A stretch of 64,000 nucleotides of DNA from an uncultured archaeon. GTDB taxonomy: Archaea > Thermoplasmatota > Thermoplasmata > Thermoplasmatales > Thermoplasmataceae. A model generated the notes under the pieces. It was not told the origin of the DNA. It saw only the letters and a list, made by a program, of their open reading frames with translations, and did not search any database. Made by a program: the position numbers and the translations under genes. How positions within the stretch are numbered: position 1 is the stretch's first letter; each line of letters starts with the position of its first letter. Shown piece after piece: positions 8,621-19,790 of the stretch. Where the stretch lies: assembly GCA_000965745.1 (NCBI GenBank), contig CP009479.1, positions 1,560,457-1,624,456 on the forward strand, in the 5' to 3' direction.

Positions 8621-8674
8621 AAAACGTTAATAATTAAGAATTGTTAGAAGGTGAGGGAAGGAGGATATAAACTG

Positions 8675-9118
8675 GTGTCCAAGACGGAAACTGTCACCAG
8701 GGAAGCACTCAGCCATCTGCTTATCCTGGAACAGTTAAAAAGTGGGGATAAATATCCTTATCAGATAATACAGGGAATAACTTCCAAATTCAGCTCTAAC
8801 TACAAACCCAGCACAGGTGTAGTCTATCCGTCACTGTACAGGATGCTGGAAAAAGGTTACATAGTAAAGCGCAAGAGATTCTACCACATAACTGACGAGG
8901 GGCTGAAGGTATTCACAGAACAGTATGAAGATTTTCTGGCCAGGATTGAAGATTTTTACGAGGAAAAACAGTTTCTCAAGCAGTACCATGAATCTCTGAA
9001 AAGATTATCCAGGGTGATTTACCAGACAGACAGGAATTTCATGCATGAATATGAGAAAAATATTGTTTCAAAGCTTAACGAGATAGCGGACAAAATCGAA
9101 AACATGGATCCCATCTAA
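8675..9118 (+). CDS. PadR family transcriptional regulator
   Basis: A PadR-type winged-helix repressor of about 147 residues. The N-terminal domain has the family order: REALSHLLILEQL, then YQIIQGI, then the recognition and wing region GVVYPSLYRMLEKGYIVKRKR and YHITDEG. A long C-terminal helical region (residues 85-147) forms the dimer coiled coil. The frame is open from a GTG at 8651. GGAGG ten bases before the GTG at 8675 marks that codon as the start. PadR proteins usually repress adjacent multidrug transporters, and an ABC/MFS export operon follows. Confidence 0.87.
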   Translation: MSKTETVTREALSHLLILEQLKSGDKYPYQIIQGITSKFSSNYKPSTGVVYPSLYRMLEKGYIVKRKRFYHITDEGLKVFTEQYEDFLARIEDFYEEKQFLKQYHESLKRLSRVIYQTDRNFMHEYEKNIVSKLNEIADKIENMDPI

Positions 9119-9366: not shown

Positions 9367-10362
9367 TTGCCGGGCAATATTATAGAAACAAAAGATCTGA
9401 CCAAGATTTACAAGGGAAATATCAGGGCAGTAGACTCACTCAATATTCAAATAAAGGAAGGTGAAGTTTATGGCTTGCTTGGCCCAAACGGTGCGGGAAA
9501 GAGGACTACCATCAACATGCTTATCACCAGAATATCCCCCACATCCGGTACAGCATCCGTTGACGGCTTTGATATCGTCAAGGAATCCCTGCAGGTTAGA
9601 AAAACCATAGGTGTAGTGCCTCAGGACTTAACTGCTGATGAAGATCTTACCGGAAGGGAGAATCTTGTCATGGTTTCACAATTCTATGATGTACCCAAGC
9701 CAACGGCAGAGGACAGGATCAGGCAGCTACTCAAGCTTGTAGACCTTGAAGATGCGGCCGACAGATATGTAAACACTTATTCTGGCGGGATGAGAAAGAG
9801 GCTGGAGCTTATACTGGGGCTAGTGCACGACCCAAAGATACTTTTTCTTGATGAGCCAACCCTGGGGCTTGACATTCAGACCAGGACACAAATGTGGGAT
9901 TACGTCAGGGAGATACAGGAAAGGCTGAATGTAACGATTATTCTAACCTCCCATTATCTGGAGGAAATAGATGCACTGGCAGATATGGTATCAATTATAG
10001 ATCATGGGAAAGTGCTTATAACGGGAACACCCGAGGAGCTGAAGGAATCGCTAAAAGGGGATATTATAACAATCACACTGAAGGACGAGGCGAATGTAGA
10101 AGTGATGAAGAAAGTTCCTAATGTTGTGGAGGTCACAGAACATGGCCCCAACACGCTTCGGATAAAGGTTGTAAACGCAGACGAATCACTGCCCGATATA
10201 ATCAACTACATTTCAAAGAACGGCCTTTCAACCAACAAACTGACTGTTCAGAAGCCAACACTCGATGAAGTTTTCCTTGAGTACACGGGAAGGAACATAA
10301 GGTCAGAGGAACCTGCAGACGCCAGAAAAATGATGATGAATATGAGGAGGATGAGAAGATGA
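9367..10362 (+). CDS. ABC-2 type exporter ATP-binding protein (DrrA-like)
   Basis: A 331-residue ATPase of a drug/antibiotic exporter of the DrrA/CcmA family. The order is Walker A GPNGAGKRTT (about 39-48), Q-loop VVPQD, signature YSGGMRKRLEL, Walker B ILFLDEPTLGLD, and switch His in TSHYLEE, then a DrrA-like C-terminal extension. The residue after the Walker A lysine is Arg instead of the usual Ser or Thr, although Thr follows. The start is probably TTG at 9367, placed correctly after the TATA box for a leaderless mRNA. It overlaps the permease gene by four bases. Confidence 0.92.
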   Translation: MPGNIIETKDLTKIYKGNIRAVDSLNIQIKEGEVYGLLGPNGAGKRTTINMLITRISPTSGTASVDGFDIVKESLQVRKTIGVVPQDLTADEDLTGRENLVMVSQFYDVPKPTAEDRIRQLLKLVDLEDAADRYVNTYSGGMRKRLELILGLVHDPKILFLDEPTLGLDIQTRTQMWDYVREIQERLNVTIILTSHYLEEIDALADMVSIIDHGKVLITGTPEELKESLKGDIITITLKDEANVEVMKKVPNVVEVTEHGPNTLRIKVVNADESLPDIINYISKNGLSTNKLTVQKPTLDEVFLEYTGRNIRSEEPADARKMMMNMRRMRR

Positions 10363-11165
10363 GTGGAATCGGGCCCTTAACCGTAAGGGAACTGAAGAAA
10401 TGGTACAGGAATCCTGTCTTTTTCGTTACCGGGCTACTGCAGCCGTTTTTCTGGATCGCCCTGTTTGGAAGTGCATTTGACATCACTAAGTTCTTCCCGC
10501 AGGCAAGCGAACTTGTTCTTGGAGGGGCTCCAAACTACATAACATACATAGTGGGAGGTGTCCTGACAATTTCCGGTTTATTCACTGCAATGTTTGCAGG
10601 GACAAATATAATTTTCGACAGGAGGCTCGGGCCAATGGGGAGGTTCCTGTCTTCCCCAATAAGGAGAAGTTCAATAGTCTTCTCAAAGGTCTTTTCATCG
10701 GTCATAAGAATACTTCCTCAGATACTGATCCTAATTGCTGCGGCGATCATCATACCCAACGGCCTCAAATTTGCGAACGGGTTTACCGTCCCTGACGCGC
10801 TGGTTCTGCTTACTGCCATAATTCTCATATCCCTGATTTTCTCGTCAATCTTCAGTGCCATCGCCATCCGGATGACCAACATGAACTCCATCTTCGGAAT
10901 CGTTAACCTTGTCAATCTGCCGCTTCTATTCGTGAGCTATGCCATGTTTTCGTCAGAAATGATGGCAGGTTGGCTTGCAGACATTGCGAAATACAATCCG
11001 GTTTCATGGTCTGCCGAGTCAATAAGAATGGTCATCATAAACGGCAGTAATATGACCATGTCACAATGGGGGCAGATAGGAGAATGGCTTGGGGGACTCG
11101 CAGTGCTTGCTGTAAGCCTGACTCTTCTTACTGCTTATCTGGCAGAGAAGGAGATTAGAGACTAG
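10359..11165 (+). CDS. ABC-2 type exporter permease
   Basis: A 268-residue integral membrane protein with six predicted helices. It opens with the typical ABC-2 start, LTVRELKKWYRNPVFFVTGLLQP. A central FDRRLGPMGRFLSSPIRR coupling region is characteristic of DrrB/NodJ-type permeases. Its ATG overlaps the stop of the ATPase, so the two subunits are translationally coupled. Transported substrate unknown; PadR control suggests toxic compounds. Confidence 0.92.
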   Translation: MSGIGPLTVRELKKWYRNPVFFVTGLLQPFFWIALFGSAFDITKFFPQASELVLGGAPNYITYIVGGVLTISGLFTAMFAGTNIIFDRRLGPMGRFLSSPIRRSSIVFSKVFSSVIRILPQILILIAAAIIIPNGLKFANGFTVPDALVLLTAIILISLIFSSIFSAIAIRMTNMNSIFGIVNLVNLPLLFVSYAMFSSEMMAGWLADIAKYNPVSWSAESIRMVIINGSNMTMSQWGQIGEWLGGLAVLAVSLTLLTAYLAEKEIRD

Positions 11166-11191: not shown

Positions 11192-11668
11192 TTGAAAGAG
11201 AGGGATTATGCCAACAGGGTCATGTTCATGCTTTCGTTCAGGGAGATGTCTGGCTATCAGCTCTCCAAGAACATACATCACCATGGGGAACAGATATCCA
11301 GCGGAACCCTGGTACCCATACTTAGAAACCTTGAATCTGCAGGTCTGATCACTTACAGGAGAAGTGGCAAACGAAAAATTTACGGCCTCACTGACAAGGG
11401 AAGGATATACACCCAATCCCTTAGAGAGATAGGCGACGAGCTCAAGAAAAAGATGTTCGTTGAGAGCGTGGATCAGAACCTGCTTTACTACGATATACTC
11501 ACGAACTATGAGGACGTAGAGGCAATAAAGAAAGTCCTGGATAAGCTCGGGGATTTGCTGCTTGAGGTTATTCGAGCAGGATTCAGGTTGGAGAAGAAAA
11601 GTTCACCTGATGAACTGGACAAGCTTGAAAGGGAGATAAGATACGTGCTGGAGACGAAGAAAACATGA
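11192..11668 (+). CDS. second PadR family regulator
   Basis: A PadR-type winged-helix protein of up to 158 residues: FREMSGYQLSKNI, then SSGTLVPILRNLESAGLITYRR, then the wing KRKIYGLTDKG, then a helical dimerisation tail. The start is a TTG at 11192 with AGGTG upstream, or an ATG at 11222. It lies between the ABC permease and the MFS gene and overlaps the latter by four bases (ATGA), so it is part of the same operon. It may sense a second ligand or regulate the internal MFS/surface-protein part. Confidence 0.87.
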   Translation: MKERDYANRVMFMLSFREMSGYQLSKNIHHHGEQISSGTLVPILRNLESAGLITYRRSGKRKIYGLTDKGRIYTQSLREIGDELKKKMFVESVDQNLLYYDILTNYEDVEAIKKVLDKLGDLLLEVIRAGFRLEKKSSPDELDKLEREIRYVLETKKT

Positions 11669-13131
11669 GTTACGGCTACCCTGAAATGAAATCTCCAAAA
11701 GTAGAGAACCATGAGGGCATAACTATCGGAATCCTGGCGTTCATGGGGATACTCATCACTTATGTCGAGACAATGATAACGCCTGCTCTCCCTGTTTTTG
11801 TAAACGTATTCAATACAAATTATGACACGCTCTCATGGGTCCTAACCGCTTACATAATTACAGGAACCACTGCAGCGGCCTTGTTCGGTAAGCTCGCAGA
11901 CATAGTGGGCAAGAAAAAGATCTTTCTGTCTCTCGCAATAGTCTACGCACTGGCAGTCAGTTTCGGGGGGTTCGTCAACACGATCGGCGAGCTTATTGCG
12001 GTCAGGGCAGTACAAGGCCTGGGTTTTGGGATGTTCCCCATCGCATTTGCAGTACTTAACGATCAGGTGCCCAGGGAAAGGCTTGCCCTGGCCCAGGGCA
12101 TCATCAGCTCAACATTCGCGGGCGGATCAGCAGTCGGCCTGGTGGGCGGAGCATACATAACACAGAATTTTGGCTGGGAGTGGTCCTATCACTCCGCAAT
12201 ACCCCTTGCTTTCGGCCTTGTCATTTTCGCCGCATTGTTCCTCAAGGATTATTCTGTCCCGAGGAAGGAAAAAATAGATTTTCTGGGAATAGGGTCACTT
12301 GCTATTGGCCTTACAACCCTGATTTTCGGCCTGTCGGAAGGCCAGTATCTTGGATGGTCATCTCCTGAAATCATTGGAATTTTTTCAGGCTCGCTGTTAT
12401 CATTCATCGTGTTTGCATGGGCGGAGTCACACGTTGAGAAACCGTTCATAGACATTAATCTGCTCAAGATCAGGAATGTGTTCCTTGCGAACTTTACCGG
12501 GCTGTTTGCGCTTGCGGCCCTCTTCTTCTTGTTCTACTCAATACCCCCGTTGCTTCAGGACCCATCTCCAGCAGGTTTTGGCCAATCAATATTCAGGTCC
12601 GGGCTGGTTCTTCTTCCAGCATCAATACTGACCATGGTTTTTGCTTCGGTTGCTGCAAAGGTAACGACAAACCGCGGGCCAAAAGTGGCAATTCTCATCG
12701 GGAGCATCATCCTTTTCTTTGCATACCTGGGGCTCCTCTTCAATAGAGGCTCAATAGTATCAATTTCTGAGGATTCCGCAATTCTTGGCATCGGAATGTC
12801 ATTCATATTTGTGGGCGTGATAAACATACTGCTAATCTCCATACCTGTTTCAAGGTCGGGAGAGGCAACGGGAATGAACGTAGTCTTCAGGAACATAGGG
12901 ATGTCAATCGCTCCGGCAATAGGCGGCGTTCTTGAAACAGTTTACACAACCAACGTTGTGGTGGGGTATCTTCCATACAAACTGGGGCAGCTTCCTGTTG
13001 TTCCTATAATGACTTCGTTCCCATCCACAAGGGCTTTTGACTCCATATATCTCGTGGGCATTGTGTTTCTTGTAGCCGCAATAATATTTACACTGATGAT
13101 GAAAAACATCATAGTTGGAAAAGGTAGGTAA
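11665..13131 (+). CDS. MFS multidrug exporter, DHA2 (14-helix) type
   Basis: A 488-residue transporter with about 14 membrane helices, the size of the DHA2/EmrB drug:proton antiporters. The motif A loop GKLADIVGKKK follows helix 2. The antiporter-type motif on helix 5 reads GGSAVGLVGGAYITQNFGWEW. It is translated from an ATG overlapping the PadR stop. Its place with an ABC exporter and two PadR repressors indicates a toxic-compound efflux operon. Confidence 0.92.
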   Translation: MSYGYPEMKSPKVENHEGITIGILAFMGILITYVETMITPALPVFVNVFNTNYDTLSWVLTAYIITGTTAAALFGKLADIVGKKKIFLSLAIVYALAVSFGGFVNTIGELIAVRAVQGLGFGMFPIAFAVLNDQVPRERLALAQGIISSTFAGGSAVGLVGGAYITQNFGWEWSYHSAIPLAFGLVIFAALFLKDYSVPRKEKIDFLGIGSLAIGLTTLIFGLSEGQYLGWSSPEIIGIFSGSLLSFIVFAWAESHVEKPFIDINLLKIRNVFLANFTGLFALAALFFLFYSIPPLLQDPSPAGFGQSIFRSGLVLLPASILTMVFASVAAKVTTNRGPKVAILIGSIILFFAYLGLLFNRGSIVSISEDSAILGIGMSFIFVGVINILLISIPVSRSGEATGMNVVFRNIGMSIAPAIGGVLETVYTTNVVVGYLPYKLGQLPVVPIMTSFPSTRAFDSIYLVGIVFLVAAIIFTLMMKNIIVGKGR

Positions 13132-13133
13132 AA

Positions 13134-14873
13134 ATGAAAAAAAGTATAGTATCTCTGGTTTTAGTAATGCTGGCATCCACTGCATTTTTTGGACTGGCAG
13201 GACATGCTGAAGCTGCAACTGCCCCATCCGGGACAGTTAGTGTGACGGGCGTGTCATGGTTTTCGCCAAATTCCACAAATCAGGCAGTCCCCGGTATGGA
13301 TAACATCCCGCTCTTTGTAACATTCTTCAACGCCCAGGCTCTCACAAACGTGTCTGTGCACGTCAACCTGACTGCCTATGCAGCTGGAGTTTTCAGCTAC
13401 AGTTACATCATCGGCCCGGACAAACAGGTGAATGAAGTCTACAATTTTCCTGCACTCCCTGCTCAGAGCACAACAACGGTTGAACAGACAGTGAACATAT
13501 CCGGCAACGCGCCTAATGGAATCTACGTGGAGAACCTGAGCTTCTCATACGGAAACTCCACCACAACATACTATGGGAATGCATCATTCAATCTTCCACT
13601 TGCGGGATCTGTAAACATTGTTTCACCGACCGCATATTTCGGATCGCAGTCTTCACCTATTGCAGGAACTCCAGGAATGAGCAATGTGCCAGTGACAGTA
13701 ATGCTGGAGAACACCGGGACTGCGGCTGCAACCAATGTAACTGTCTCCTACGCGCCATCAGGGAGCCTTTCCGGATTGGCACAGCATACCACAATTTCCG
13801 CTATACCTTCATTCGGCGTGATTCCGGTTACATTCATCGCGTCCGTCTCGGATAACGCCACAGTAACGCAGGCCTATAGCCAGAATCTCACAGTCTCATA
13901 CTACGGAACATCCCACAAAGTTCAATTCCTGCTGCCCATAACCGGCTCATCAAAGCTGTCAATAATCAACTACTTCACAAACCCGCCCGTGATATTCCAG
14001 GATGAGAAATTCATAAGCCTCACACTTGTCACAGAGAACTCAGGAAGCTCCTTCGCAAAGAACGTATCGGTATCTTTGGCTTCCAGCAGGTTCGATGTGC
14101 TGACGAACCCTTACAACCTGTCATACTACCCTTCAGGCAGCATCCAGCATTTCACTTTCCTGATAAGCGCAAAGAACTACACCGGGATGTCGGATCTAAC
14201 CGTAACCCTCGGTAAGACAACACTGGGAATATCACTCAATCTGCGTTCACATGGAAGCTTTGGAATCGCAGCAAGCATACCCGACCTTCATACAGGGGTG
14301 AATAACCAGCTTCTGTCATTCAACATAACCAATACCGGCGTCACTACCCTTTACGACTTCTCTCTGCACCTGCTCTCCCCCAGTGTCATATCACTCCATA
14401 TCCCGACTTCCAACCCACTTGCAGCACTCACTGAAACAAACGTGACATTCGCCCAGATCAATCCGGGCCAGACTGTGACGGCGACATTCCTCGTGGATAC
14501 AAGCGGCTCTGCCCAGTTTGAGACATATCCGGCGCAGCTCGCAATAAGCTGGAGGTTGAACAACTCTGTTAGCCCGTTCTACCACACCTACAATTTCAAC
14601 GAGAAAGTGACGCCTACAGGCATACAGAACCTGCAGGGTGTTTTCACATTCACTCCGTTGAACATCGCAGTTCTGGCTCTCATAGTCGCTCTCGTCATTG
14701 GCCTGGTCGCATTTGCAGGTAGGAGCAGAAAACTAAAGAAAGAAGCCGATCAGCTCAGGAAAGAAAAGAAGAGCGAGGAACTTAAGCAGCTCCCCCACAA
14801 AGACTCAAACGGAAATGATCAGCTCTCCAGAATAATCGGGAGCGCGGACGAAAATCAGAAAAGGGGCAGGTAA
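13134..14873 (+). CDS. secreted, membrane-anchored surface protein (COG1361/CARDB-like repeats)
   Basis: A 579-residue exported protein. A signal peptide (residues 1-28, ending GHAEA) is followed by about 480 extracellular residues made of several CARDB-like beta-sandwich units with repeating 'N-V-T-V-S' strands and many N-glycosylation sequons. A C-terminal membrane helix (about 500-525) and a basic cytoplasmic tail complete it. It is the last gene of the efflux operon, two bases after the MFS stop, with AGGT before the ATG. It may be an envelope partner of the transporters, comparable in position to adaptor proteins, but that role is inferred from context only. Confidence 0.8.
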   Translation: MKKSIVSLVLVMLASTAFFGLAGHAEAATAPSGTVSVTGVSWFSPNSTNQAVPGMDNIPLFVTFFNAQALTNVSVHVNLTAYAAGVFSYSYIIGPDKQVNEVYNFPALPAQSTTTVEQTVNISGNAPNGIYVENLSFSYGNSTTTYYGNASFNLPLAGSVNIVSPTAYFGSQSSPIAGTPGMSNVPVTVMLENTGTAAATNVTVSYAPSGSLSGLAQHTTISAIPSFGVIPVTFIASVSDNATVTQAYSQNLTVSYYGTSHKVQFLLPITGSSKLSIINYFTNPPVIFQDEKFISLTLVTENSGSSFAKNVSVSLASSRFDVLTNPYNLSYYPSGSIQHFTFLISAKNYTGMSDLTVTLGKTTLGISLNLRSHGSFGIAASIPDLHTGVNNQLLSFNITNTGVTTLYDFSLHLLSPSVISLHIPTSNPLAALTETNVTFAQINPGQTVTATFLVDTSGSAQFETYPAQLAISWRLNNSVSPFYHTYNFNEKVTPTGIQNLQGVFTFTPLNIAVLALIVALVIGLVAFAGRSRKLKKEADQLRKEKKSEELKQLPHKDSNGNDQLSRIIGSADENQKRGR

Positions 14874-14918: not shown

Positions 14919-16073
14919 ATGAGCGAGGTTCAGGGCAAGGCATCCAACGGCATGATCAGCATTGAAAGGTCAGGCAGCGAAGTAATCGCCATGGACTCTG
15001 AGGGGAGGCTTCTTTACTTCAGCAGTGGTTCCGAGACCTGGAAACGGTCCTTGGGCAACAGGTATACACAGATCGGCTGGGAGGGTGAAAAACGGATAAT
15101 CAGGAAATTGTCCGAAGAAGAAGGTGCCGGGGTTTACAGCAAAGCAATGAATTTCCTCCGGGAAGTCTCGCATGAAATAGATCAGGCAGATCTTTCCCGG
15201 GCAGTTTCATATATTCTGTCCAAGGACGAGAAATGGATGGCAGAAGACTCCAGGAAGTTTGAGGAAATCTACGGCGGGAAGTTTCCCATTATACCGCAGG
15301 ATCAGAGGTTCTCAGCATATTTTCAACTGACCGCAGGCTCCACCTGGAATAACTGCACATTTGCGTCTCCTGGTGTTGAGATCTCACAGCGGGATGAGGA
15401 TGACTTCATTAGCCACATAAACAGGGTCAAGGATCAGTTCGGAAAGGGTATGGAACTACGAAGGGGAGCATTCCTGGGCGATGTGTCTGCATTGAACTCT
15501 GAGCAGAAACCGCTTCTGAAGGCTATGGACATAATAAGGGAGCAGACCTCGCTTCCATTGTACACATTTGTAGAGGCGTTCTCTGTGCCAAAGAAAAAGA
15601 ACATGATACATTATCAGGACATGAAAAGGCATGGGCTTTCAAGGGTTTACGTAGGAGTCCAGTCAGGGAGCGTCAGCCTGCTCAGGCACTTTGAGGCGCT
15701 CAAGAATGTATCCGAAATACTGAATCTTGTCAACAACCTCAAGAATTCAGGAATAAGTGTTGGCCTGATTGTCCTTGCAGGCTATGGTGGATTCAAGCAC
15801 TCGAACGATCATATAAACGAAACTGCTGCAATAATTTCCCAGATGGATCTGGATGAAGGTGATATCATCTATATCTCCCCCATGGACGAGCAGGATGATC
15901 CAAGGTATGCTGCACTTGTCAAGGAGGGAACATTTGATGTAATGGACCATGAAGCAATGAAGGATCAAGCTGATATGCTTGAAAATAAGATAAAAGAGGA
16001 ATTCCAAGCTTCAAACAGGATCGAGTTGAAAACACAGATCTCGAGGCACGACATAAGGGAAGGAATTTATTGA
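14919..16073 (+). CDS. radical-SAM-like protein lacking two cluster cysteines
   Basis: A 384-residue protein with the layout of a radical SAM TIM-barrel enzyme of the 'GCSWNKCTFC' type. It has the first strand FSAYFQLTAG, a following FLGDVSAL, then HGLSRVYVGVQSGS, and a late GLIVLAGYGGFKHSNDHINETA. At the cluster site (about residues 140-150) it reads GSTWNNCTFA, so only the middle of the three cysteines remains. A canonical 4Fe-4S cluster is not expected, and the usual Glu of the GxESG motif is Gln. It may be a non-catalytic paralogue or use another cofactor. A TATA-like TTTATTACG lies about 30 bases before the ATG. The IS605 element follows directly. Confidence 0.7.
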   Translation: MSEVQGKASNGMISIERSGSEVIAMDSEGRLLYFSSGSETWKRSLGNRYTQIGWEGEKRIIRKLSEEEGAGVYSKAMNFLREVSHEIDQADLSRAVSYILSKDEKWMAEDSRKFEEIYGGKFPIIPQDQRFSAYFQLTAGSTWNNCTFASPGVEISQRDEDDFISHINRVKDQFGKGMELRRGAFLGDVSALNSEQKPLLKAMDIIREQTSLPLYTFVEAFSVPKKKNMIHYQDMKRHGLSRVYVGVQSGSVSLLRHFEALKNVSEILNLVNNLKNSGISVGLIVLAGYGGFKHSNDHINETAAIISQMDLDEGDIIYISPMDEQDDPRYAALVKEGTFDVMDHEAMKDQADMLENKIKEEFQASNRIELKTQISRHDIREGIY

Positions 16074-16177: not shown

Positions 16178-16600
16178 ATGTCCCATGACCTCGACAGGGG
16201 GGCTCATTCGGTTTACTCCCTATATTACCACTTCATTCAGGTGGTGAAGTACCGGAGGGAAGTTTTCGTAAATGATGAGCTTGTGGATTTCCTCAAAACA
16301 AAGGTCAGGGAGATAGCGGATAGATTCAGTGTCGAGGTTGTTTCAATAGAATGCGACAGAGATCATTTCCACATGCTCTTCAAGGGAACGCCCGTTCTGA
16401 GGATCACTGAATTTGTGAATGCAGTGAAGACCATCACATCGAGGGAAATACAGAGAAGATTCCCCGAAGTGAAGAAGGTTCTGTGGAAGGGCAAAATGTG
16501 GGCGCCATCTTACTTTCTGGCGACATCGGGGCAGGTAACATTGCCTGTAATGATGAAGTATGTTGAATCGCAGGAGGCTAAGAGAACTGAAAGCGTATAG
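16178..16600 (+). CDS. tnpA: IS200/IS605 Y1 HUH transposase TnpA
   Basis: A 140-residue single-strand transposase. The HUH metal site is DHFHMLF, and the catalytic tyrosine lies in LPVMMKYVESQ near the C-terminus. It nicks and joins single-stranded DNA at the terminal hairpins. Length and motif order are complete, so the protein is probably active. It overlaps the start of tnpB by about 40 bases. Confidence 0.93.
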   Translation: MSHDLDRGAHSVYSLYYHFIQVVKYRREVFVNDELVDFLKTKVREIADRFSVEVVSIECDRDHFHMLFKGTPVLRITEFVNAVKTITSREIQRRFPEVKKVLWKGKMWAPSYFLATSGQVTLPVMMKYVESQEAKRTESV

Positions 16601-17792
16601 GTTCAGGCTGTACCCGTCTGCGGAGCAGGAAGAAATGCTCAACGAACAGCTGAAACTCTGCAGAGATCTATACAACGCATTCCTGCTTGAGAGGAGGTAC
16701 GCATACGGGGGATCAAGGAAATCCCTCACGTACAATCATCAGCAGAACGAGATACCTGAACTGAAGAATGCTTTTGAAGAATACAAAGAGATTCACTCAC
16801 AGGTACTGCAGGATGTTGCCAGAAGAGTGGACAGAGCGTACCAGAACTTCTATAGAAGAATCAGAGAGAAAAAACAGGGAATCAAAAAGAAGGCCGGATT
16901 CCCAAGACTGAAAGGGAAAGGCCAGTACAAGTCTCTCACATACCCTCAGTCAGGATTCCGCCTGATGAATAACGGTCACCTGAAACTCTCAAAGATCGGA
17001 AGAGTGAGAATGTTCATGCACCGTGATATTGAGGGCGAGATCAGGACACTCAACATCTCACGTGACAGCACAGGAAAATGGTATGCTTCATTCTCCGTGA
17101 AGCAGGAGATTGTTGCCCTTCAGCCAGAGAAGACGGGCAACAGCATCGGGATCGATGCTGGGCTGTTGCATCTTGCAACGATGAGTGACGGTAACACTGT
17201 GAAACCTCCTCAATTCCTGAAGAAGGGAGAGAAGAGGATCAAAAAGGCACAGAGGAAACTGTCACGCAGGAAGAAAGGTTCAAACAACAGACGGAAAGCA
17301 AAGATCAATCTCTCGAAGCAACATGAAAGAGTGAAAAATCAGAGAGAGGACTTTGCACACAAGCTGTCAAGCCAGATCGTGAAGAACAACGATCTGATCG
17401 CCTTCGAGGATCTGTATGTAACAGGAATGATGAAGAACCATCATCTGGCAAAGAGCATAGCGGATGCTTCATGGAGCACCATCGTACAGTACACAACCTA
17501 CAAGGCTGGGAGTGCCGGTAAGAGTGTGGTGATGGTTGATCCAGGAAACACATCTATGGAATGCTCAAATTATGGATATAAGAAGAAAGAGCTGAAACTC
17601 TCAACAAGAGTGTTCAGGTGCGATAATTGTGGCTATGAGATCGACAGGGATCTCAATGCAGCGATCAACATCCATAACAGAGGATTGGAAAAGGTAGGGA
17701 GGGGCACTCCCGAAGTTACGCCTGTGGAGACTGGAGTCCAACTATCCTTCCGGATGGTTCAGCCGGTCAGGGAAGCAGGAAGCCCCGTCTGA
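16560..17792 (+). CDS. tnpB: TnpB RNA-guided nuclease of IS605
   Basis: A 410-residue TnpB. The N-terminal part starts KAYRFRLYPS. The RuvC-like active-site acids are in GIDAGL, FEDLYV and DRDLNAA, all present. The zinc ribbon is damaged: its first pair reads CSNYG where CSxCG is expected, while the second, CDNCG, is intact. TnpB cuts DNA guided by the RNA from the element's right end and helps keep the element in place. The lost cysteine may weaken folding, so activity is uncertain. Confidence 0.92.
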   Translation: MLNRRRLRELKAYRFRLYPSAEQEEMLNEQLKLCRDLYNAFLLERRYAYGGSRKSLTYNHQQNEIPELKNAFEEYKEIHSQVLQDVARRVDRAYQNFYRRIREKKQGIKKKAGFPRLKGKGQYKSLTYPQSGFRLMNNGHLKLSKIGRVRMFMHRDIEGEIRTLNISRDSTGKWYASFSVKQEIVALQPEKTGNSIGIDAGLLHLATMSDGNTVKPPQFLKKGEKRIKKAQRKLSRRKKGSNNRRKAKINLSKQHERVKNQREDFAHKLSSQIVKNNDLIAFEDLYVTGMMKNHHLAKSIADASWSTIVQYTTYKAGSAGKSVVMVDPGNTSMECSNYGYKKKELKLSTRVFRCDNCGYEIDRDLNAAINIHNRGLEKVGRGTPEVTPVETGVQLSFRMVQPVREAGSPV

Positions 17793-17808: not shown

Positions 17809-18486
17809 TCACTCTATCACGGTTCCTGAGATGCTTTTCCCTTCCATTACTTTCTCATATTCTTCCATATTGGTGCCGTCAATGACACAGACTTTCAGTT
17901 TTGACCTTTTTGCAATGTTGAGGGCGGTTATATCCATGAAAACATTGGGGCCGGCTCCAATTGACTTGTCAACCGCGAGCTTGATAGCTTCGTCGTAGGA
18001 AAGATGATCGAATTTTCTGGCGTTTTTAACTTTCTTCGGGTCGTCACTGTAAACGCCATCGACTGAGGTTGCGTTAATCAGTGTCCTGGCGCCTATTCTC
18101 TCTGCCAGAAGCGTGGCCACAGTATCCGTCGTGTGCCCTGGCTCAGTTCCGCCCATGACAACGTGCCTGTACACCGCAACAAGTTCCGAGGCATCATTTA
18201 CAGTTGTAGGTATCTTTGAGTTGACCCCTTCAAGGAATGTTGATACTGTGAGGGCATTCATTCTCGTAGCATTAATGCCTATCTCATCCAGTACATTGTC
18301 ATTAATGTTGTACTCTTTCAATGAGGATATATAGGTTCTCGCAAGCCTCCCTCCTCCGACGACAATACCGAATTTGTCAAACTTCTCCGTATTCTTCAGC
18401 ATCCTGCTGAACTTTTGTATGAACTCTAGCTCGAGGGTCTCCTTGGAGATGATCGAACCTCCGAGCGAAATTACGATAGGTTTCAT
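17809..18486 (-). CDS. pyrH: UMP kinase (archaeal type)
   Basis: A 225-residue amino-acid-kinase-fold enzyme that phosphorylates UMP to UDP. It begins [14 protein letters not shown]. It has the [10 protein letters not shown] segment, the [12 protein letters not shown] substrate loop, and the late [11 protein letters not shown] typical of archaeal UMP kinases, and the length is normal. The stop codon TGA lies inside the right end of the IS605 element, so the last residues may have been altered by that insertion. The gene diverges from aRF1. Confidence 0.94.
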
Positions 18487-18533: not shown

Positions 18534-19790
18534 GTGGCGTCAGAAGATCCCCAATTAAGAAAATACGAATTCAAAAAAGCATTACAGGAGCTTGGGAACC
18601 TCAAAGGACGGGGTACTGAGCTTATATCACTGTACATACCGCCAGACAAAATGATCTCTGACGTAGTCCAGTATTTGAGGGAGGAGTTTTCCACTTCATC
18701 CAATATAAAATCAAAGTCGACAAGGAAGAATGTTCTTTCAGCAATAGAATCAATAATGTCCAGGCTTAGAGTCTATAAGTTTCCCCCCGAGACCGGCCTG
18801 GTGTTTTTCGTTGGACATGTTTCAACACGAGGGGACCAGACAGAGATGTACACAAAGATCATTGAGCCACCCGAGCCAATTCAAACCTTCATGTACAAGT
18901 GTGACTCTATTTTCCACCTGGAGCAGTTGCAGGATCAGTTAAAGGTAAAGGAGCTCTATGGCCTCATCGTTATTGACAGGAAGGAGGCTACCATTGGGTT
19001 TCTAAGCGGGACAAACATACAGCTTGTCGCAAACGAGCAATCTCTTGTTCCGAGCAAGCATCATCAGGGTGGGCAGTCATCCCGAAGATATGAGCGCCTA
19101 ATAGAGAGTGCTGCCCATGAATTCTTCAAGAAAGCGGGAGAAATTGCCAATAATTCTTTCATGCCTCTGATAAAGGATATCCAGGCGGTATTTGTCGGTG
19201 GCCCGGGGGCTACGAAGGAATATTTCTTCGATAAGGGTTACCTCAGGAATGAAATCAAGGATAAGGTCAAGGACCTGTTCGATCTCGGATACACAGATGA
19301 AACAGGGCTCAGGGAGCTTGTTGACAAAGCATCCGACTCAATCAAGGATATGCAGATTGCCCGAGAACGCGACCTCATGAACAAGTTCATGTCTGAGATA
19401 AAAAAACCAGACGGCGGACTTGGCATCTATGGAAGCCTGGCCGTAGAGCAGGCTCTGAGGCAGAAGGCAATCGACACCCTTCTTATTTCCGAGGGGCTGA
19501 GCAAGTCAAAATATGTGTATGGATGCTCAAGCTGTGGAAACGTCATGGAAACGCAAAAAGAGTCTGATGGACAGCCGCAATGTGAGAAATGTGGCGCCTC
19601 AATGAGTCTGACCGATGAGTTGGATCTTGTGGAAGTATACTACCAGCTTTCGGAGGAATCAGGCGCAAGAGTTGAAATGATCTCCGAAGACAGCGAGGAA
19701 GGAAAACTCCTGAAAAAAGCATTTAGCGGCATAGCGGGAATTCTCAGGTACGTTCCGACAAATTCCCAGATCCCACAGAAAGCAGCCTGA
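18534..19790 (+). CDS. prf1: peptide chain release factor aRF1
   Basis: A 418-residue archaeal class I release factor that recognises all three stop codons and releases the peptide. Domain 1 carries the stop-decoding NIKS motif ([12 protein letters not shown], about residue 60). Domain 2 carries the catalytic GGQ in [12 protein letters not shown]. Domain 3 contains a zinc ribbon (CSSCG...CEKCG). It starts at GTG, with TATA-like elements at about -20 and -30 (ATTATAAATT, GATTAAATAC). It shares a short divergent promoter region with pyrH. Confidence 0.96.

Follow-up and report, generated by a model that had tools for sequence, protein, structure and literature searches.

A probable and apparently recurrent radical SAM pseudoenzyme beside an exporter locus in Thermoplasma-related archaea

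Recognition of radical SAM proteins relies on three cysteines, and a member that has lost them can easily be overlooked or taken for an error. The gene considered here lies in a stretch of 64,000 nucleotides of archaeal DNA, referred to in its whole length as the window, and two known groups stand closest to its product. The first is an unnamed radical SAM family with a CX4CX2C motif, represented by PF04055 members among the records of Thermoplasma sp. FL, Acidiplasma aeolicum, Nitrososphaeria, Geothermarchaeota and Anaerolineae. The window protein is homologous to this family over its full length (43% identity across residues 3-384 to the Thermoplasma protein, its nearest relative) and is encoded at the same locus in several sister genera, but it lacks two of the three cysteines as well as a conserved Glu, Asn and Lys. 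The second is MgmA, the MCR glutamine C-methyltransferase (PDB 9ccb; TIGR04014), which is the best solved relative by both profile and fold, yet the window protein lacks the full cluster motif and the matches barely cover its N-terminal beta domain. A warning against equating an absent diagnostic residue with absent chemistry comes from the aminoacyl radical enzymes. According to PMC11528403, the glycyl radical family includes members with Ala, Ser or Thr in place of the catalytic Gly, and members without the diagnostic residue are widespread and were previously overlooked. As presented there, such variants stay radical enzymes, whereas the window protein misses the cluster ligands themselves, with no replacement ligand set visible in its sequence. 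Pseudoenzymes are already a known kind of protein; an earlier description of a radical SAM pseudoenzyme was not found in the open-licence literature, and none is given in the available parts of PMC10754289, PMC4207490, PMC9576991 and PMC11528403.

The gene occupies positions 14919-16073 of the window on the forward strand and encodes a radical-SAM-like protein of 384 amino acids without a complete cluster motif, as judged from the open reading frame, the homologues and the fold. The frame starts with ATG at 14919, ends with a stop codon at 16071-16073 and contains zero internal stops. Where its relatives carry GC.WN.C.FC (CX4CX2C) and ESG, the window protein carries GSTWNNCTFA (residues 140-149; 15336-15365, forward strand) and QSGS. 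In this former [4Fe-4S] cluster motif, the first and third cysteines are replaced by Ser141 (codon TCC) and Ala149 (codon GCG), while the second is kept as C146, which is the sole Cys of the whole protein; a gap of two residues is found at the conserved Tyr that follows the third Cys. The loss of two of the three cluster cysteines and the change of the ESG Glu to Gln in an intact 384-residue frame, both reported in a preliminary description of this DNA, are thereby confirmed. As for the expected motif, given there as GCxxNxCxFC, the loss stands and the spacing needs restating, the family being characterised by CX4CX2C and not by CX3CX2C.

The rest of the presumed cofactor site is altered in the window protein as well, by the changes E248Q, N190S and K260A. 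Residue 248, the first of QSGS, is Gln (CAG, 15660-15662, forward strand) where all 44 Cys-intact relatives have the Glu of the ESG motif; residue 190 is Ser (15486-15488, forward strand) where 43 of the 44 have Asn, in a GDAN motif that follows barrel strand 183-187; and residue 260 is Ala (15696-15698, forward strand) where 42 of the 44 have Lys, a position changed in all five Cys-lost lineages. The contact of these three residues with SAM is presumed from their position. Gln is usual at the strand of the ESG Glu in HemN/MiaB-type enzymes, and its presence is therefore weak evidence when taken alone. Each of the three cysteines, like the Glu, is conserved in 44/44 intact relatives, which places the pattern of the window protein beyond ordinary variation. 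Because both the cluster ligands and the presumed SAM-site residues are gone, radical chemistry appears very unlikely for this protein.

The distribution of the family was surveyed with a profile that contains the window protein itself and matches it with an E value of 4.9e-149. Relatives occur in Thermoplasma, Acidiplasma and other Thermoplasmata, in Nitrososphaeria and other archaea, and in Chloroflexi and further bacteria. The window protein found matches in 18 of 61 sampled related genomes, its own genome counted. The family profile matched 35 of the 77 genomes of the window's own family (f1), leaving 42 without a match, and 35 of 117 genomes across the order, i.e., none of the 40 from families other than f1. 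A contig scan with the single protein as query returned 20 pattern matches and no confirmed relative; it was the profile scan that found the relatives. PF08967 and PF13360 matches were recorded in 3 of 47 relatives, and they were not located when nine relatives were re-examined.

The 35 f1 genomes hold 41 family genes in 43 stretches, two genes being split in two pieces. These two, L148 in genome G007 and L136 in G094, are Cys-intact genes divided into two frames, either by real breaks or by assembly errors. The motif GC.(4)C.(2)C is present in 31 of the 41 genes; the other ten, spread over five genera, lack one to three of the cluster cysteines. Besides the window gene, they comprise genes in four of the six genomes of g16 (G[TAV].WNRC[TS]IS with QSGS), in both genomes of g7 (GAKWNLST[IV]T with ESGS), the second copy in both genomes of g13 (GSEWNY[CG]NVF with ESGS), and the single copy of g5 (GCKWNRSTLC with ETGD), in which the middle Cys alone is missing. 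Over loci L051-L129 and L171-L189, drawn from f1 and other groups, the strict motif was found in 92 of 98 matches, the remaining six comprising three Cys-lost genes of f1, a distant relative (L126) that fails the strict pattern with an ordinary CX3CX2C spacing, and two fragments that do not cover the region. Cys-lost members were not seen outside f1; an additional census of two classes, with matches in 23/200 and 31/199 genomes, yielded 53 fetched proteins, all 53 intact. Such members may be under-sampled among the named relatives, since the scan patterns required the ESG Glu or a second motif. The homologue search suggested in the preliminary description thus returned relatives both with and without the cysteines, and most are Cys-intact; the contrary outcome that it had named, homologues that all lack the cysteines and belong to a different TIM-barrel family, was not found.

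The AlphaFold model obtained with the window protein and 46 relatives reaches a pLDDT of 90.0 and a pTM of 0.89, with the cluster loop (143-148) below 50. The model of the intact Thermoplasma protein reaches a pLDDT of 94.3 and has no stretch below 50, block 141-150 averaging 85. N-terminal beta strands and the barrel are present in both, and the models predict that the radical SAM barrel stays while the old cluster loop loses order, although a predicted structure is no proof that a ligand is absent. MgmA (9ccb) is the closest solved structure to the window model (Z 17.5, 3.0 Å over 225 residues) and to the intact Thermoplasma model (Z 19.0), and the matches that follow it are other radical SAM proteins; the first 48-56 residues hardly appear in the VIA-align lists, and these fold matches therefore concern the barrel. 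A sequence profile searched against solved structures also ranked MgmA best (E 3.2e-10), and the same search with the single protein sequence gave chance-level matches only. PF04055 scores 24.8 bits over residues 232-303 alone, below its gathering cut-off of 29.5, and the protein is therefore classed as a relative of the superfamily, on grounds of descent and fold, and not among the radical SAM enzymes. Scores against the equivalog models are 17.9 bits for MgmA (TIGR04014, cut-off 360) and 16 bits for HemW (TIGR00539, cut-off 205.4). No curated family name was found, the NCBIfam matches of the window protein and seven relatives lying far below their cut-offs. Full-length homology to cluster-bearing proteins and a partial TIM barrel whose top Z matches are radical SAM proteins uphold the radical SAM relationship that had been proposed from the sequence.

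The locus itself is conserved downstream. An amino-acid-kinase-family gene (UMP-kinase-like; 17809-18486, reverse strand) and the aRF1 release factor gene (18534-19790, forward strand), both assigned by Pfam and synteny, mark the same locus in g7, g8, g11, g13, g16 and the window. The window gene is thus an orthologue of the intact genes. It is also the one family member of a complete genome (2.23 Mb, one contig, 99.4% complete), where a search for an intact paralogue gave one weak 58-residue match (E 0.015) and no such gene. For these two reasons the term paralogue, used in the preliminary description, does not apply. Between the gene and the kinase lies an IS200/IS605-type element (16178-17792) with a Y1 transposase and a TnpB that has a Cas12f1-like domain.

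Upstream, Pfam and synteny identify an exporter cassette that begins with a PadR-family regulator (8651-9118, forward strand) and continues with a DrrA-type ABC exporter ATPase (9367-10362, forward strand) and an ABC-2 exporter permease (10359-11165, forward strand). In 16 of the 21 clade members that could be assessed, these three genes immediately precede the radical-SAM gene; two more members, at contig ends, are not counted among the 21. Five genes depart from this arrangement: the pair of intact genes in g16, one of those in g7, that of g5, and the window gene, whose distance from the permease is 3.7 kb. The interval, 11192-14873, holds a second PadR gene, an MFS transporter and a 579-amino-acid protein in which inspection by eye suggests a signal peptide and a membrane segment at the C-terminus; most relatives have nothing at this place. 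In the sister clade, no member has the cassette directly upstream. The Cys-intact g9 genes of that clade (L142-L147), read by eye, adjoin another radical SAM gene and a precorrin-methyltransferase-like gene. A correlation of cluster loss with the cassette was not found: intact g6 and g11 genes have it and intact g16 genes do not. The window's exporter ATPase has the Walker A sequence GPNGAGKRTT, with Arg where Thr or Ser follows Lys; the codon AGG is one base from ACG, and the 15 other readable cassette ATPases all have Thr or Ser at that site. This raises the possibility of an impaired exporter, or else of a sequencing error at this site.

Relationships among 54 proteins were reconstructed by maximum likelihood from an alignment stripped of the motif and Glu columns; pieces shorter than 250 amino acids were left out, and the split gene of G007 is absent from the tree, its motif having been read. 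The sister group of the window gene is a clade of 16 rows in which intact and lost genes are intermingled, and the four lost genes of g16 fall in one group with the two intact genes of that genus (97/97). AU tests reject a single clade of all ten lost rows (p 0.002), of the window gene and the g16 lost genes (p 0.0001), and of the window gene with g7, g13 and g5 (p 0.0105). A Glu-to-Gln change as one event common to the window and g16 was likewise considered and rejected (p 0.0001). The tree, the motifs and the AU tests together establish descent with loss of cofactor residues, one of the marks of a pseudoenzyme. The pattern suggests three to four or more separate losses, unless cysteines were regained. 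Without regain of the three-Cys site, it would imply losses in the window lineage, in g5, in g16, and in g7 with g13, the last two counting as one loss or two because their union is weakly supported (76/33). Under unordered parsimony three changes suffice, so that loss followed by regain is formally possible; a mixed pattern could also arise if an intact copy, acquired by transfer, took the place of a Cys-lost one. Long branches occur among the lost lineages (0.9 for the window's own, 1.38 for the g13 stem, 0.78 for g5, 0.75 for the g7 stem) and among intact ones too (1.01 for the g13 intact stem, 0.92 for g4), and they leave the positions of the window and g5 rows less certain than the result for g16.

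The explanation that we consider probable is that of a radical-SAM pseudoenzyme which arose recurrently, has retained the ancestral pocket and functions through binding, perhaps in concert with the exporter. A different explanation would make the gene a passenger: the enzyme became dispensable several times, its cofactor site was released, and the remainder reflects slow decay or selection for folding only. The long branches of the lost lineages (0.75-1.38), the 42 of 77 f1 genomes without a match, the split copies in G007 and G094 and the changed Walker A of the neighbouring ATPase would all fit this account. However, some intact lineages have long branches as well, both split copies are Cys-intact, and the substitution patterns argue for constraint. 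Pairwise dN/dS, estimated by the Nei-Gojobori method, is 0.052-0.097 among g16 Cys-lost pairs (one of the six pairs has a saturated dS and no value), 0.058 for the g7 pair and 0.068 for the g13 pair, all of which lie among the values for intact pairs with a finite dS (0.045-0.196). The dS values of g16 and g7 approach saturation, and the most reliable comparison is the g13 lost pair, with a dS of 0.87. Region by region, four lost pairs give a pN of 0.043-0.147 against a pS of 0.52-0.78 for the barrel, which in every case is less free to change than the 64-129 linker; the N-terminal domain matches or exceeds the barrel in constraint in g16 and g13 and falls short of it in g7. The Cys-lost pairs of g16, g7 and g13 thus show purifying selection; for the window branch, the one indication is its open frame. 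Relative to its nearest relative, the window gene differs at position 2 in 33% and at position 3 in 66% of codons, and neutral drift simulated to 20% amino-acid divergence introduced a mean of 4.3 stops, and 3 of 200 runs stayed free of them. A passenger is therefore unlikely. Retention in preference to simple decay, as first proposed, fits the sister Cys-lost lineages, with their dN/dS of 0.05-0.10 and a barrel pN far below pS; of the phrase "retained, repurposed use", the first half is upheld by these lineages and the second is interpretation.

The residues that changed and those that were kept bear on what the protein might still do. Of the 48 columns conserved at 85% or more in the 44 intact proteins, 13 are changed in the window protein and 8 in the g16 lost group. 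Columns altered in at least three of the five lost lineages are C141, C146, C149, A189, N190, K260 and, near the C-terminus, P373 and Y377; E248 is altered in two. The position of K260 is already Gln in two intact g16 proteins, a hint that this change preceded Cys loss there. Whether the changes accumulate preferentially in the cofactor site was tested with a set of sites picked after viewing the alignment, and the outcome (p 0.013 for the g16 lost group, p 0.16 for the window protein) is therefore only suggestive. The residues that stay the same in all five lost lineages include Y118, P126, G140, W143, N144, D188, G239, R242, K275, G290, H298 and D315. One may ask whether the protein is instead a non-radical enzyme, whose pocket would use Cys146, a bound metal or a nucleotide for other chemistry. 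C146 is indeed kept in the window protein and in all four g16 lost genes while both partner cysteines change, and GxxWN is kept in all lost lineages. Yet C146 is replaced by Ser in g7 and g5 and by Gly in one g13 copy, the g7 proteins contain no Cys at all, and no Cys chemistry can therefore be common to the lost lineages, which leaves this reading quite unlikely.

Alternatively, the protein could pair with a radical SAM protein that bears a cluster and form the non-catalytic subunit of the resulting heterodimer. The g13 genomes do hold intact and Cys-lost relatives, which lie about 9 kb apart in G012, and the 21 radical SAM matches in the window's genome are partners in principle. The other eight Cys-lost genomes (G000, G015, G086, G087, G089, G006, G024 and G004, several of them incomplete) are nevertheless single-copy; with one family copy per genome no intact family partner is left, and a heterodimer is unlikely in the window and improbable as a general account. 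The G012 locus (L166) offers a direct pair for comparison. A genome-wide loss of radical SAM enzymes was also considered as the cause and rejected, PF04055 matches numbering 21 in the window's genome and 12-23 in 15 others. Finally, a sequencing or assembly error or a wrong frame has nothing in its favour beyond the oddity itself and is of negligible probability, given a single-contig genome that is 99.4% complete, multi-base codon changes (GCG is several base changes away from TGY, so that Ala149 is no single read error) and in-frame Cys-lost versions in nine other genomes.

The pseudoenzyme explanation leads to a model that starts from an ordinary radical SAM enzyme of the CX4CX2C type, encoded behind a PadR/DrrAB-type exporter cassette and presumed active from the conservation of the motif. 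The window lineage and at least two or three other f1 lineages would then have separately lost the cluster and the presumed SAM residues, while keeping the barrel, the N-terminal beta domain and the residues that are unchanged in all Cys-lost lineages. From the constrained barrel and the unchanged polar residues, we infer that a ligand is still bound, and the recurrent exporter neighbour suggests that this ligand is related to the exporter. The ancestral ligand or the exporter's cargo would be the most likely candidate, and binding would be the protein's mode of action, whether it serves the neighbouring exporter as sensor, carrier or scaffold. A more specific version, which we put forward tentatively and regard as possible, is that Thermoplasma-related archaea repeatedly converted an exporter-linked radical SAM enzyme into a cluster-free and SAM-free binder that serves or senses a DrrAB-type exporter, with g16 holding both forms.

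Losses that occurred separately, next to intact relatives within a genus, amount to a natural experiment on which parts of such a protein are worth keeping without the chemistry. If the model is true, a radical SAM barrel would be used as a transport-associated binding protein. Should the cargo of the exporter prove to be what is bound, the Cys-lost proteins would provide a testable model for radical SAM pseudoenzymes and a pointer to the substrate of a widespread and uncharacterised radical SAM family.
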